Shown here: positions 1,988 through 23,411 of the stretch, piece after piece
Layout: every line of letters begins with the position of its first letter
How positions within the stretch are numbered: the first letter of the stretch is position 1
Origin: a virus
IMG/VR virus record: IMGVR_UViG_3300008261_000131
Span: 1-26,610 of that record
Length of the DNA: 26,610 bases
Reading direction: 5' to 3' (one strand)
Made by a program: the position numbers and the translations under genes
Notes under the pieces: generated by a model
What the model was told of the DNA's origin: nothing
The model's database searches: none
The model's input: only the letters and a program-made list of their open reading frames with translations

Positions 1988-2902
1988 ATGCCTATTGTTA
2001 CTACCCCATTCGATGACAGAATAGAATATTATTGTACTGGATCTGGAGCACAAACATTAGTTATTCCCGATGGTGCATATAAAATAAATTATGAACTTGT
2101 TGGTGGAAGGGGAGGAACTGGAGGAACTGGATATGGTCATCCTGGAGGTACTAATCCTTGGTCTGGATCTATAGGTGGATATGGTCAACTATTATCTGGA
2201 GAATTAAAACCAGATCAATTTTCTGGAAAAACTATAACATTAAATGTAGGTCAAAATGGAACAAATGGAGATGGTTTTTCTGGTTCTTCTGGTGGCGGAG
2301 GAGGAACGTCTGGAGGACAAGGAGGATATAATTATAGTGAATCAGATTCTGGTGGGTTTTCTGGAGCAGGTGGAGCAGGTGGAGGAGGTTCTTCTAGAAT
2401 TAGAGTTGATTCAACCACTGTATTGGTAGCTGGTGGAGGCGGTGGCGGAGCTGGAGGACAGTGGTTTAAATTTGATACCCCATTTAATGGTCAAACATCA
2501 GAAAATGTTTATAATCAAAACGATAATAAGTCAGAAAGTAATGGCAATCCAGGAATTAATTCTGGAGCTTCATTTAATGGTGCTGGCGGGGGCGGTGGTG
2601 GTGGATATCCTGGTGGAAATGGTGGTAATGGATATAATGCAGGAAATAGTATTGCAGGTCAAGGAGGATTTGGCGGTAATGGTTTTATTCATACATCATA
2701 TGTTCAATCGTATTCAAGATCAACAGCCACTATAGACGGTTATATAAAATTAATTGTTTATCAAGCTCCATCTTATATAAGAGTTTATAATAATGAATGG
2801 AAAACAGCAAGTAAAGTTTATATTCATAATGGCACAAGTTGGCAGCAAATGAAGCAGGTATTCATTAAGCACAATAATGTGTGGAAAAAAATATATGGTT
2901 AA
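1988..2902 (+). CDS. Glycine-rich adhesin-like virion protein
   Basis: This 304-residue protein starts 20 bases after the upstream fibre gene. Residues 35-240 contain dense Gly runs such as GGGGGT, GGGGGGAGG and GAGGGGGGGYPGGNGG, separated by short polar stretches. They resemble the polyglycine sandwich of T-even gp38 adhesins and Gly_rich (PF12810-like) domains. The C-terminal 45 residues hold repeated short motifs of the form VYxNxxWKxASKVYIHNGxxW and end in NNVWKKIYG, a tail often found on phage fibre ends. It probably forms a receptor-binding tip for the preceding fibre, but the link to gp38 rests on composition and gene order only. The Gly-rich DNA also opens a long frame in +3 that is not credible. 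Confidence 0.75.
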   Translation: MPIVTTPFDDRIEYYCTGSGAQTLVIPDGAYKINYELVGGRGGTGGTGYGHPGGTNPWSGSIGGYGQLLSGELKPDQFSGKTITLNVGQNGTNGDGFSGSSGGGGGTSGGQGGYNYSESDSGGFSGAGGAGGGGSSRIRVDSTTVLVAGGGGGGAGGQWFKFDTPFNGQTSENVYNQNDNKSESNGNPGINSGASFNGAGGGGGGGYPGGNGGNGYNAGNSIAGQGGFGGNGFIHTSYVQSYSRSTATIDGYIKLIVYQAPSYIRVYNNEWKTASKVYIHNGTSWQQMKQVFIKHNNVWKKIYG

Positions 2903-2908
2903 TAAATA
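2902..2908 (+). promoter_or_regulatory. Late promoter box (ATAAATA) for the second fibre gene
   Basis: ATAAATA directly follows and partly overlaps the stop codon of the Gly-rich gene and lies 16 bases before the ATG at 2924. The predicted leader is about 10 bases. Confidence 0.65.
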
Positions 2909-2923
2909 ACAATAAAACTTCAG

Positions 2924-4483
2924 ATGGCGAATAGATATCCTTTAGTTATCAATAATTCCACATCTCTTGTTGGCGAATTACCAACTGGAGACTCACTAAA
3001 TTTAAGTGCTGCAGGAATTTTTGATGGTATTAGCACTGGAGCAAATACACAAGTATTAACTTCAACAGGAACACAAGTTCGATGGGCTAGGGCTGCGGAT
3101 GTATTTCTATCTGATAACCAGACACTATTAAACAAAACATTAAGTTCATGTACATTTAATGCTAGTTTAAATACCTTAACCAACGTAGCTAATGGTTCTT
3201 TAATTAATTCTAGTATTAATATTAATGGAACTGCAGTATCTTTAGGTGGTTCTATTACTATTCCAGATACAAATGATAATACAATTTATGCTATTAGTGT
3301 AGCAGATGGTGTTAATGCAACGCAGAAAAGAATTAGATTAACAGCTGGTGGTTCTGGTTCTGGTGTTCAAGATGTATTCTTAGTTGCAGGATATAACACA
3401 ACAATAACAAGAACAAATAATGATACATTAACGTTTGCTTCTGGATTAACTCAGCTTAGAGCGCCAGCAGCAAGTCCATATATTGAAGGACAAATAACAA
3501 TAGAAGGATCGGGTGGGACAAGAGTATCACAAAATCTACAAACAATTACGATAGAATCAGATGCATTTCCAATTGGTGGAATCATAATATGGTCAGGATC
3601 AATTGCTTCTATTCCAACAAAATGGGCATTATGCAATGGTCAAGTAGTGAATGGAATTACTACTCCAGATTTAAGAAGTAGATTCATAGTTGGAGCAGGT
3701 AGTACTTATAATGTATCTTCCACTGGTGGATCAAAAGATGCAATATTAGTATCTCACCAGCATACGGGAACTACTACAGTAGAAAGTCAATCACATACTC
3801 ATAGTGGAACTACTGGAAATGAAAGTCAATCACATAGTCATAGTGGAACTACTGCAGATAATAATGTAGGTCATACTCACTCTGGAACAACTGGAACCGA
3901 AAGTGCTAATCATAGCCATAATGGAAGCACTGATACTCAAGGCAGCCATAGCCACGGAGGAAGCACAAATAGTAATGGTTCTATTCATGCTCATAATTTT
4001 AATACAGGCGGAGAATCAAATAACCATACCCATGGTTATCAAGATAGAGGATATAATTTTAACGTAACTGGCAAACAAGGTGGACCAGGATGGGCAATAC
4101 AAGGTCCATATGGATTTGATTTTGGTAGAGCAACTGATGGAATTAGTACTGGACATTTTCATAGCGGCACAACTTCATACAATGGAGGATCACACTCTCA
4201 CAATATAGGAACAGATACACAAGGATCGCATTCCCATAATGTAAGCATTAGTAGTCAAACTACTAATCATACACATAATTTTACTACAGGTGGAGTTAGT
4301 TCAAATCATACACATACTTTTACTTCAGGAAATGCATCACAGTCACATACCCATAACATAACTACAGGTAATACATCACAAAGTCATACTCATGACGTAA
4401 CTGTTTCCACGCAAGGAGTAGATGGAACTGACAAAAATCTTCCTCCATATTATGCGCTAGCCTACATAATAAAGGTACAGTAA
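2924..4483 (+). CDS. Tail fibre with collar domain and 15 HxH motifs
   Basis: This 519-residue protein has residues 1-175 paralogous to the protein at 732. Residues 215-260 match a phage tail collar domain (PF07484-like): FPIGGIIIWSG, then KWALCNGQ and TPDLRSRFIVGAGS. Residues 278 to about 498 contain 15 His-x-His motifs spaced mostly 12-13 residues apart, within SHTHSGTT-like repeats. The protein ends NLPPYYALAYIIKVQ, the usual end of collar-type fibres. In T4 gp37 a series of HxH motifs binds a line of iron ions along the trimer needle, and a similar metal-bound needle is likely here. It has its own late promoter, and a small coiled-coil gene follows after four bases. Confidence 0.85.
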   Translation: MANRYPLVINNSTSLVGELPTGDSLNLSAAGIFDGISTGANTQVLTSTGTQVRWARAADVFLSDNQTLLNKTLSSCTFNASLNTLTNVANGSLINSSININGTAVSLGGSITIPDTNDNTIYAISVADGVNATQKRIRLTAGGSGSGVQDVFLVAGYNTTITRTNNDTLTFASGLTQLRAPAASPYIEGQITIEGSGGTRVSQNLQTITIESDAFPIGGIIIWSGSIASIPTKWALCNGQVVNGITTPDLRSRFIVGAGSTYNVSSTGGSKDAILVSHQHTGTTTVESQSHTHSGTTGNESQSHSHSGTTADNNVGHTHSGTTGTESANHSHNGSTDTQGSHSHGGSTNSNGSIHAHNFNTGGESNNHTHGYQDRGYNFNVTGKQGGPGWAIQGPYGFDFGRATDGISTGHFHSGTTSYNGGSHSHNIGTDTQGSHSHNVSISSQTTNHTHNFTTGGVSSNHTHTFTSGNASQSHTHNITTGNTSQSHTHDVTVSTQGVDGTDKNLPPYYALAYIIKVQ

Positions 4484-17188: not shown

Positions 17189-18055
17189 TCAGAACTTGAA
17201 TCCAAGACCAGTGGTGAACACAGGCGAATAGGTTCCGTTGGTAGCACCATAGCTGTTAGCAGCATTGGTAGTAGGGAACTTCAGATCAGCAAAACCAACC
17301 AGCGAGTTGGTGATACGACCTTCTACACCAAGAGCAAGCATCACCTGACCACGATCACCGATAGCAGACTGATAGTTTGCTTGGGTATCATTGGTGAAAG
17401 GAACCTGATAACCAACACCAGCATAAATGTTAGCAGCACTTACACCAGCCTTACGAGCAATCGACCAATCATAAGAGACCAGAGCGCCACCAGCAGTACC
17501 GATGTCACTGTTAGGACCAGCAACGGCATTCAGGTAAGGACGAACCGACACAGCATTCTGGTTCGTGAAGTTCTTTACCGCATAACGTGCTTGAAGAGTA
17601 GCACCAGAGATAGTACGATCAGCAGTATAACCACCACCGTCAACACCTTGCTTATTCAGCAGTACACCCAGACCAACATAGTTACCAACACCTTGTGCCT
17701 TTTGAGCAGCAGCAACTTCAAGAGCACTTACACGAGAGTTGACCGAAGCAAACTCAGCACGAAGAGCAGCAGCAAGTTTAGCATCTGCTTCAGTTTGATA
17801 TTCAGTGATGCGATCAAGACATGCGTTGGTGAGAGCAGCAAGCTCAGCACGAGTAGCAGGTTGACCAGGCTGGAAAGTACCGTTAGGATAACCAGCAACA
17901 CAACCGTAACGAGAGATCAGGTTAGAGATTGCCTGATACGACCACTCGGTAGGTTGAACATCACGAAGTTGAGTAACACTAGTTACTTGTGCCATAGCAG
18001 GAGCAGCAACAGTAGCAGCAGCCACACCAGCAGCAATAAACGAACGAATCATCAT
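17189..18055 (-). CDS. Porin-like outer-membrane protein with SLH domain
   Basis: The 288-residue protein has a signal peptide (residues 1-23, ending APAMAQ). Residues about 29-75 form an SLH domain (LRDVQPTEWSYQAISNL, YPNGTFQPGQPATRAELAAL). Residues about 80-112 are a coiled coil rich in Ala and Glu, and residues about 115-288 are a small beta barrel ending in Phe, the usual outer-membrane assembly signal. Cyanobacterial porins have the same order of SLH, coiled coil and barrel but are usually about 500 residues. This barrel is only about 175 residues, closer to an eight-strand OmpA-type barrel. Base composition and codon choice look more host-like than in the fibre genes, which suggests acquisition from a cyanobacterium. 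A late box (CTAAATA) precedes it. Insertion into the host envelope is inferred. Confidence 0.85.
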   Translation of the reverse strand: MMIRSFIAAGVAAATVAAPAMAQVTSVTQLRDVQPTEWSYQAISNLISRYGCVAGYPNGTFQPGQPATRAELAALTNACLDRITEYQTEADAKLAAALRAEFASVNSRVSALEVAAAQKAQGVGNYVGLGVLLNKQGVDGGGYTADRTISGATLQARYAVKNFTNQNAVSVRPYLNAVAGPNSDIGTAGGALVSYDWSIARKAGVSAANIYAGVGYQVPFTNDTQANYQSAIGDRGQVMLALGVEGRITNSLVGFADLKFPTTNAANSYGATNGTYSPVFTTGLGFKF

Positions 18056-21140: not shown

Positions 21141-21503
21141 TTAGACCCTTGTATAGCAAACAGATGCTACACCTTGTCCTGGATGAGCAATAGTGGAGAA
21201 CGCACCATAAGACAAGTCAAGATCTCTATCACCAACATAGGGACCACGATCATTTACACGCACAATTACCGATCTACCAGTTCGTTGATTTGTAACTCTC
21301 AATCTAGTTCCGAAAGGAAGCCATCGATGTGCTACTGATTTTCCATAAGCGTTAAACCTTTCACCGTTAGCAGTTGTCTGCCCATGATATCCATCACCGA
21401 CTCCATAATGTGATGCGAGGGAACATCCGCTCGCTGCCTTTGCTGTTACGGGTGCCAATCCGACAAGACCAAAAGCGATAATCGAAAGTGTTTTAAAAAG
21501 CAT
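21141..21503 (-). CDS. RlpA-like double-psi beta-barrel protein
   Basis: A 120-residue protein with a signal peptide (residues 1-24, ending VTAKAA) and one RlpA-type double-psi barrel: ASHYGVGDGYHGQTTANGERFN (in two blocks, about residues 30-51), VAHRWLPFGTRLRVTN (about 57-72) and VRVNDRGPYVGDRDLDLS (about 81-98). RlpA proteins are periplasmic or outer-membrane lytic transglycosylases that cut peptidoglycan lacking stem peptides. Here the SPOR domain of full RlpA is absent and no lipobox is clear. A role in cell-wall opening or remodelling during infection fits. The promoter at 21611 is a perfect consensus, and the leader is long and structured. Three Cys remain in the mature chain region (one near residue 27 and one near the end are clearest). 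Confidence 0.88.
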   Translation of the reverse strand: MLFKTLSIIAFGLVGLAPVTAKAASGCSLASHYGVGDGYHGQTTANGERFNAYGKSVAHRWLPFGTRLRVTNQRTGRSVIVRVNDRGPYVGDRDLDLSYGAFSTIAHPGQGVASVCYTRV

Positions 21504-21886: not shown

Positions 21887-22004
21887 TAACCACACCCAAG
21901 AATACTTTAAGAGTGGTGATATTTGGCATCTTCAAAAAGCAGATGAACTTAGACAATATCTGCACGAGTTAAAAACTTGGATCCATAAACAGGAAGGAAG
22001 ATGA
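21813..22004 (+). CDS. Small hypothetical protein (63 residues)
   Basis: A charged, helical 63-residue protein with WNAPIHHILKAVDNHTQEY (about residues 13-31) and IWHLQKADELRQYLHELKTW (about 37-56), which look like a compact helical domain. It overlaps the previous frame by 74 bases and the next by four (ATGA). The four-base overlap with a clearly membrane-type gene supports it as real. It is His- and Trp-rich but without a metal-site pattern. Function is unknown. Confidence 0.65.
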   Translation: MPREWNTPKREPWNAPIHHILKAVDNHTQEYFKSGDIWHLQKADELRQYLHELKTWIHKQEGR

Positions 22005-22237
22005 AAACACTAGACAAGTTAATCATCATCATTGTAGTTTGTACTGTTGGATATGTTGGTATTACATTTACCAACTGCAACTTCATGGTTCCTGGATCTA
22101 TTGAAAGTGCCAATGCAAAAGGAGAATTAAAAAATCCCCCATCTATAAAGTGCGAGAACTCTATAGACAAGGGATATAGTGCGTTGTTTACTTTGTTTAC
22201 TGCGTTGCTTGGATTAAAAGCAAAGATGGATGATTAA
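22001..22237 (+). CDS. Small membrane protein (78 residues)
   Basis: A GGAAGGAAG sequence precedes ATG 22001, which overlaps the previous stop (ATGA). Residues 6-24 form a membrane helix or uncleaved signal (KLIIIIVVCTVGYVGITF). A polar middle with two Cys follows, and a second hydrophobic stretch lies near residues 60-72 (YSALFTLFTALLGLKAK). Two membrane segments with the loop outside would be compatible with a holin- or pinholin-like size, and the convergent neighbour is a lysozyme. There is no specific holin motif, so this is a suggestion only. Its 3' end overlaps the lysozyme gene's 3' end by four bases. Confidence 0.7.
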   Translation: MKTLDKLIIIIVVCTVGYVGITFTNCNFMVPGSIESANAKGELKNPPSIKCENSIDKGYSALFTLFTALLGLKAKMDD

Positions 22238-22716
22238 CTAATCCAGAGTTTACCTTCAGCAATTCTTCTTCTCAGTAATCCTGCCTCTACACTACTCCCA
22301 GGATTACGATACAACTTCAAAGTTTCTGGGATTGCTTTCCAATTTTTTTGTTTAAGATTATTTGTAATAGTGTTGAAGCCGCTACTACCGTAGAAGCCAG
22401 CACCGAGATTATAAGCAAAAGACAAAAGTGCTCCTCGTTGATTGTCATTCATTTCATTCCAATAAGGTATTTTTTGAAGGGCAGGTAGGAAGTGATTACG
22501 AATATCAAAATCTAATAAAGCATTTGCTTCTTCCAAACTAATTTTTTCACCAAGATGAAATGGCTGCCCATTTCTTTTACGAGTACTTCCCCACCCTATA
22601 GTAATAGGTAATCCACCAGTATGTGGATCAACATATGCGCTTAATTTACATCCCTCAAAATCTTTTAATAGCTCTACCCCAGCACGAGGAATATCATCAA
22701 GTGTAGAGCCTACGCC
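22234..22716 (-). CDS. GH24 lysozyme domain in the minus-one frame of the peptidase gene, no own start
   Basis: A 160-codon frame joined to the upstream peptidase only by a minus-one shift at 22716. It carries a complete GH24 (T4 lysozyme-like) domain: AGVELLKDFEGCKLSAYVD (catalytic Glu in FEG, Asp in YVD), LPITIGWGST (Thr of the T4 E/D/T triad), then NQRGALLSFAYNLGAG and GLLRRRIAEGKLWIS. It cleaves peptidoglycan glycan strands. A stop lies just upstream in this frame, and no ATG, GTG or TTG occurs before the catalytic Glu; the first TTG is at 22536, past the active site. It must be made by frameshift, by an unusual start, or be broken by an indel. See the separate finding. Confidence 0.85.
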   Translation of the reverse strand, partial: GVGSTLDDIPRAGVELLKDFEGCKLSAYVDPHTGGLPITIGWGSTRKRNGQPFHLGEKISLEEANALLDFDIRNHFLPALQKIPYWNEMNDNQRGALLSFAYNLGAGFYGSSGFNTITNNLKQKNWKAIPETLKLYRNPGSSVEAGLLRRRIAEGKLWIS

Positions 22717-23411
22717 TTTTTTGCATCAAAAATACGACCCCAACCATCCTTACCCCCTGGGCACCATCTACGAGCCAGTTCTGAACGCTTGTAGACCGCT
22801 CCACGACCATTTGTGACTGCGCCTGTGTATCCATCATTAAGACTGCCGTATGGATCATTTACAACATAATCCCCAGCTGGAGTTTTACCAATTACTACAA
22901 CCATGTGTCCTCCCGTTGGATTAGATAAAGTCCCCCTATGAAGAATACCAATAACAATAGGTCTACCAGAGGCAAGCTCTCTATCAAGATCAGCAAAAGA
23001 AAGGCTGTAGGAAAAGCTGGATTTAATGCCATATGACGAAAGAACACGGGTTTGAACCATGTGATCTGTTGTGTCACCAGTTGAGAAAACTTTTTGAACA
23101 TAGGCGTCGTCTCCTTTTGCTCCGTTTAGTGTGCCTGGTTTAAAATACTCAAGGCACATAGCACAGGCAGAAGAATTGCAAGTCCTATGAGCGTCTCTGT
23201 AATTATCAGTTTGAGGAAAAAATGGAACAGTAAGTATAGATGACTTTGGTTGTTCTTGTTTCGTTCTAAAAATTCTCACCCAGTTAGCATCATCTTCTAA
23301 TAATGTTTTTACGGATGTTTCTAAATCTTTTTCAAATTGCTCCACTGCAGCAACATGCTTTGGATTTTTTTCATCGTAATGTTTGAAAAAGTTATGAAGA
23401 TCAATTCTCAT
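22710..23411 (-). CDS. C39-like papain-fold cysteine peptidase (frame-0 product, 233 residues)
   Basis: The domain (about residues 58-210) begins TVPFFPQTDNYRDAHRTCNSS and has the expected triad of the C39-type fold: Cys78 in RTCNSSA, His169 in GGHMVVVIG and Asp186 in VNDPYG. The N-terminal 55 residues are helical and charged. Such domains cut peptides or, in phage lysins, peptidoglycan cross-bridges. The frame ends KKA-stop one codon after a slippery A_AAA_AAG, and the minus-one frame encodes a lysozyme. The full frameshift product would have 392 residues. It overlaps the nuclease-like gene by 11 bases, so it is translated from the same mRNA. Several extra Cys (83, 86) lie close to the catalytic one. 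Confidence 0.85.
   Translation of the reverse strand: MRIDLHNFFKHYDEKNPKHVAAVEQFEKDLETSVKTLLEDDANWVRIFRTKQEQPKSSILTVPFFPQTDNYRDAHRTCNSSACAMCLEYFKPGTLNGAKGDDAYVQKVFSTGDTTDHMVQTRVLSSYGIKSSFSYSLSFADLDRELASGRPIVIGILHRGTLSNPTGGHMVVVIGKTPAGDYVVNDPYGSLNDGYTGAVTNGRGAVYKRSELARRWCPGGKDGWGRIFDAKKA
22716..22722 (-). promoter_or_regulatory. Candidate minus-one frameshift site (A_AAA_AAG)
   Basis: In the peptidase frame the codons are GCA AAA AAG GCG TAG, so the heptamer is in the same register as in dnaX. Six bases later GCTCTAC (22703-22709) can pair perfectly with GTAGAGC (22671-22677) across a 25-base loop. Confidence 0.6.

Follow-up and report, generated by a model that had tools for sequence, protein, structure and literature searches.

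The junction between a C39-like peptidase gene and a GH24 lysozyme frame in IMG/VR virus record IMGVR_UViG_3300008261_000131 (positions 1 to 26,610, the whole 26,610-nucleotide stretch analysed here and referred to as the window) is very probably a dnaX-type programmed −1 ribosomal frameshift (PRF), a reading to which we give a probability of about 0.93 on comparative sequence evidence, without protein or ribosome-profiling data. The initial annotation of the window proposed such a shift, and this is borne out by a frame break, a slippery heptamer and a well-spaced covarying stem that are found in dozens of metagenomic contigs and in isolate genomes. The comparative evidence strongly supports the mechanism; that the host frameshifts at this site, with what efficiency, and that both products are made are inferred.

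In the mechanism envisaged, Lys-tRNA(UUU) occupying the P and A sites on A_AAA_AAG would re-pair one base back while the ribosome is paused by a hairpin starting about 5 nt beyond the heptamer. Most ribosomes would read one further codon, reach the TAG stop and release a 233-aa C39-like peptidase, and the fraction that slips would read on in the −1 frame, producing a 392-aa peptidase-GH24 lysozyme. One mRNA would then supply two endolysin forms, the peptidase alone and a muramidase-tethered peptidase, in proportions that depend on how efficiently ribosomes slip, their function being inferred.

Peptidase and lysozyme frames

The minus strand of the window carries, in order, nrdA, nrdB, a RusA-like resolvase gene, the peptidase and the lysozyme, and the isolate Synechococcus phage S-PM2 has the identical order (nrdA-nrdB-RusA-like-peptidase-lysin). 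No DNA near-identical to the window was found in the phage records searched. In a profile search the peptidase matches Pfam PF13529 Peptidase_C39_2 (E=1.9e-12, 48.4 bits against a cut-off of 24); Cys78 and His169 are invariant and Asn185-Asp186 is conserved in 26 relatives, and the 233 residues include a helical N-terminal domain of ~50 aa. An AlphaFold model of the peptidase is of low confidence (pLDDT 72) with only weak matches to papain-like folds, and no solved structures close to it in sequence were found. Its frame ends GAT GCA AAA AAG GCG TAG, which places the heptamer, as first annotated, in register and one codon before the stop; the run is A6, not A7.

The −1 frame opens just three codons upstream of the slip (after a TGA at 22728-22726), and the 160 codons that follow the slip encode a complete GH24 domain, as had been stated, matching the full-length model of Pfam PF00959 Phage_lysozyme (E=1.4e-21, 77.5 bits against a cut-off of 22.3) with catalytic positions read from the sequence as Glu22, Asp31 and Thr40 of the extension. 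It had also been claimed that no ATG, GTG or TTG precedes the catalytic Glu, and indeed only an ATT is present there, the first NTG of this frame being a TTG at 22536 (codon 61); S-PM2 likewise has no internal lysozyme start codon before the catalytic Glu. As it lacks a separate start codon, the lysozyme has no evident source other than the fusion. The predicted lengths of 233 and 392 residues agree with the open reading frame and the conceptual −1 translation (Table 1). Both halves are covered by a single 405-column family, PHROG phrog_3617, which falls in the PHROG category 'lysis'. The peptidase and the peptidase-lysozyme are probably two forms of one endolysin, and it is likely that they act as host-lysis enzymes, a role inferred from their domains and the PHROG category with no assay behind it.

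Table 1. Features of the peptidase-lysozyme junction, in window coordinates.
Feature	Positions	Strand	Basis or detail
C39-like (papain-like) peptidase, 0-frame product, 233 aa	22710..23411	(-)	ORF; TAG stop 22712-22710
Slippery heptamer A_AAA_AAG, 0-frame register	22716..22722	(-)	Sequence; in-frame heptamer kept in relatives
Stem 5' arm GGCTCTAC	22703..22710	(-)	5-nt spacer after heptamer; stem-family covariation
Stem 3' arm GTAGAGCT	22670..22677	(-)	Same basis as 5' arm
GH24 lysozyme domain, −1-frame extension, 160 aa	22234..22716	(-)	Open 22716-22237, stop 22236-22234
Predicted peptidase-lysozyme fusion, 392 aa	22237..23411	(-)	Conceptual −1 translation, joined between DAKK and GVGSTLDDIPR; continuous-ORF orthologue in ACG-2014f

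Slippery heptamer and stem among relatives

Relatives were taken from IMG/VR contigs and from isolates such as S-PM2, S-SRM01, S-CAM7 and ACG-2014f; two IMG/VR scans, with the window and S-PM2 peptidases, and three more with other family members contributed to a set of 308 loci, of which 149 are distinct over a 460-nt stretch and 136 are complete enough for classification. An in-frame slippery heptamer together with a lysozyme in the −1 frame is present in 76 of the 136, and in two more the lysozyme is in the −1 frame but the heptamer is missing, both having an ATGA or GTGA start. No lysozyme was found downstream in 20, it lies further away in 15, and the heptamer is absent from all of these 35; the remaining 23 are continuous fusions, seven of them heptamer-bearing. 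The heptamer is therefore associated with an adjacent −1 lysozyme (76/78 with one, 0/35 without; Fisher p=3.5e-27), although this value overstates independence, as the rows are related by descent.

Junction heptamers are A_AAA_AA[AG] in 73 of the 76 and T_TTT_TTT in the other three, and within the peptidase bodies, which comprise 29,897 codon positions, an in-frame A_AAA_AA[AG] is seen at just 3. The Lys-Lys pair at the junction is written AAA AAG in 72/76, the rarest choice elsewhere in the same genes (4/68, against 31 AAG AAA, 18 AAG AAG and 15 AAA AAA), and we reject codon bias as an explanation of the heptamer. G-rich TGG GGN Arg codons lie ~15-19 nt upstream, where they are fixed by the protein and are also present in relatives without the frameshift; no clear Shine-Dalgarno-like stimulator was seen at the dnaX spacing.

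On the host side, a tRNA-Lys(UUU) anticodon-arm pattern is matched in 59 of 61 picocyanobacterial genomes, all from the family to which a Cyanobium genome belongs, and a tRNA-Lys(CUU) is credible in just three (G005, G023 and G026); the pattern search may miss divergent tRNAs, and one UUU match was confirmed by ARAGORN. The S-PM2 genome has its own annotated tRNA-Lys(UUU), and re-pairing of this tRNA on A_AAG is highly shifty in E. coli (Sharma et al., PMC4066793).

The stem first annotated at 22703-22709/22671-22677 is present and extends to 8 bp, but it would not convince by itself: 29 of 300 synonymous recodings of the same protein pair equally well, and its RNA fold has z = −1.67. It is among the weaker stems, marginal alone, and the strength of the case comes from relatives, of which the closest homologue in stem sequence (L050, lysozyme 82% identical in amino acids) has a 16-bp stem with z = −3.6. 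For the 68 PRF-class sequences without an ATGA or GTGA at the junction, the best stem has a median length of 11 bp and, compared with 300 synonymous recodings that keep the −1-frame protein unchanged, a median z score of 3.2; the corresponding values for the eight heptamer-bearing sequences with such a junction are 6 bp and 0.46. Those eight excepted, the stem usually starts 2-8 nt past the heptamer, the usual distance for such hairpins being 5-8 nt after the slippery sequence (Sharma et al., PMC4066793). In ~25 sequences of the largest stem family the longest stem starts 2 nt past the heptamer, an unusually short spacing, and its outermost G-U/A-U pairs could be opened under the ribosome.

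Covariation is evident in the two stem families aligned. The largest ungapped family (23 sequences) has a 14-pair helix that is 98.4% paired with four doubly changed pairs, and sliding one partner along the other drops pairing to 30-48%; in the family that includes the window and S-PM2, 92.9% of the cells of a 12-pair helix are paired and five pairs have changed on both sides. When PRF sequences are given one another's 3' arms, their mean pairing score falls from 24.7 to 15.4. Different lineages have different stem sequences, such as AATCAACACCACA/TGTGGTGTTGATT, GCCAACTAAC/GTTAGTTGGC, AACTCTACTCCTT/AAGGAGTAGAGTT, CCCCACTAT/ATAGTGGGG and AATCCACCCCA/TGGGGTGGATT, which were grouped by eye. Automatic clustering of the arms over-merged the families and was not used. 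A convincing stem is absent from a few PRF-class members (e.g. L208), and no known Rfam element was found at the junction.

The initial annotation raised the loss of one A from an A7 run, by sequencing or assembly error or by recent mutation, and two metagenomic relatives (L251 and L252) do carry A7 and read through in a single frame. The A6 run and the frame break nevertheless recur in dozens of independent metagenomes and finished isolate genomes, two S-PM2 records (wild type and a deletion mutant) position the peptidase and lysin identically, and the lysozyme frame remains intact at 60-82% identity. The proposal was to fall if all close relatives read in a single frame and conserved neither heptamer nor stem, and their alignment gives the opposite; for the family we reject error or recent mutation on the conservation of the frame break, and it is hardly credible for the window. 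Transcriptional slippage, in which RNA polymerase would add one A (or U) in the run so that some mRNAs encode the fusion in frame, is very unlikely. A homopolymer is present and those two A7 relatives are compatible with it, but it would need neither register, G nor stem, whereas an A6 followed by G is kept in strict ribosomal register in 72/76 and the covarying hairpin stands at ribosomal spacing. Runs as short as A6 are generally poor substrates for bacterial RNA polymerase slippage; it is still possible in S-CAM7, because that phage has eight T in a row.

The lysozyme could instead be made by termination and reinitiation, or by independent initiation through translational coupling, and in ten relatives the junction does hold an overlapping ATGA or GTGA, one of them being S-SRM01, which is annotated as two overlapping endolysin ORFs. 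No such overlap exists in the window or in 67 other PRF-class sequences, and these 68 have no consistently placed NTG before the catalytic Glu. Sequences of the ATGA group have lost the stem, as would be expected if coupling and frameshifting substituted for each other, and for the junction at hand we regard coupling as very improbable.

Gain, inversion and loss of the arrangement

A −1 frameshift is also indicated in isolates in which the slip signal, kept in dozens of relatives, has been overlooked in the genome annotations examined. The S-PM2 peptidase ends GAT GCA AAA AAG TAA and the lysozyme goes on in the −1 frame, while the 'putative lysin' is annotated from an internal ATG past the catalytic residues; the S-CAM7 'lysin' annotation is similarly short, and the frameshift would explain why both are annotated in truncated form. 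S-CAM7 and two close metagenomic relatives have GT[T TTT TTT] CCA CAG TAG with their own stem (GTAGAACC/GGTTCTAC), which is unrelated to the others, and this trio is placed within a clade of mostly continuous fusions in the peptidase tree, so that their signal looks like an independent gain or a signal replacement. On that tree of 136 peptidases, many branches of which are modestly supported, the PRF state requires ~24 changes and all six arrangements together 30.

Phage ACG-2014f encodes the two domains as a continuous ORF of 405 aa belonging to PHROG 3617 (locus L118, positions 2501-3718), with the joint GCA AAA AAG TCT GAN; a −1 slip here would read AAA AAA GTC TGA and meet an immediate stop. 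The heptamer and immediate −1 stop are common to four ACG-2014f-type sequences and the distant L253, which retains a 12-bp stem. Most other continuous fusions lack the heptamer, suggesting that the short form is dispensable in some lineages. An AlphaFold model of the ACG-2014f fusion was too poor to use (pLDDT 61.5). L251 and L252 combine A7 and a continuous frame at the junction with retained long stems, and whether they are natural or assembly variants is unresolved.

That T4-like cyanophages have repeatedly evolved and kept a recoding switch fixing the proportion of free peptidase to peptidase-lysozyme, the ratio itself being selected, is a reading that we favour only slightly, and it rests on the apparent re-invention in S-CAM7 and on the inversion to dnaX polarity in ACG-2014f and L253. 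Some relatives do without the arrangement: their lysozyme is missing, begins at an ATGA, stands separately with an N-terminal domain of its own or is part of a continuous ORF, and therefore two products are not universally required; that the short form is not needed in every lineage limits any claim that the ratio is selected everywhere. These natural variants (heptamer with stem, another heptamer, ATGA coupling, inverted continuous fusion and lysozyme loss) make a ready test system for the gain, inversion and loss of recoding signals.

Lysozymes of the 'separate' class have their own N-terminal extension of roughly 50 residues (MxIKFxDA...LPHQxDAWxFLQ...). In DSL-LC03 (L120 3274-3942) and DSL-LC02 (L085 4031-4702) the lysozyme bears a second copy of the N-terminal ~50 residues of the peptidase. 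S-CREM1 has a single lysozyme-peptidase ORF of 393 aa with the domain order reversed (PHROG 10051 type). We infer that joining of the N-terminal helical domain to the lysozyme is a recurring theme to which frameshifting is one route.

Known systems and neighbouring genes

E. coli dnaX (tau/gamma) resembles the window in its A_AAA_AAG, its short-spaced downstream hairpin and its two products with a common N-terminus, although the genes are unrelated and the window has the inverted polarity, its short form being the 0-frame product and its long form needing the slip. ACG-2014f and L253 match dnaX in polarity too, with the long form in the 0 frame and an immediate stop in the −1 frame. The phage tail assembly chaperones G/GT share with the window a −1 shift in a late gene of a tailed phage and a minor, C-terminally extended product, but involve a tail gene rather than a cell-wall enzyme pair; in T4-like phages the chaperones are reported to rely on a different mechanism (Vladimirov et al. 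2022, cited in PMC10885494). The ACG-2014f and S-CREM1 fusions also combine both domains in one protein, but unlike the window they do so as continuous ORFs.

A frameshifted lysin may have a precedent, as a lactococcal phage lysin from two overlapping genes (Shearman et al. 1994) is listed among frameshifted genes in PMC10885494; it too is a phage lysin for which dependence on a change of frame has been proposed, although phage and host are unrelated. In the open-licence papers searched, subscription papers lying outside the search, frameshifting was not found reported for any lysis gene of a cyanophage. The signal is of a known kind, and its use for a cyanophage peptidase-muramidase pair was not found described in the searchable literature. 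To our knowledge nearly all well-documented phage frameshifts are in tail, capsid or transposase genes; here the shift would control a cell-wall enzyme pair in widespread viruses of picocyanobacteria.

A 78-aa protein with two hydrophobic segments is encoded on the plus strand (window 22001-22237), convergent with the lysozyme and overlapping its stop, and 63 distinct relatives keep it in the same antisense position (motif NPPPLDCKESERRGYETLL). It has no Pfam or PHROG match and is a candidate holin-like partner. In the region of L058 3690 a peptidase without lysozyme has its stop directly against this convergent small gene, as a clean excision of the lysozyme would leave it. An RlpA-like double-psi beta-barrel protein (PF03330, E=1.2e-21) is encoded near the lysis genes on the minus strand (window 21141-21503), and S-PM2 and S-SZBM1 have similar proteins annotated close to the peptidase. 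Also on the minus strand, a 288-aa protein (window 17189-18055) resembles, from its sequence, a cyanobacterial porin whose N-terminus is of SLH type, and a 300-aa ORF opposite it is probably spurious.
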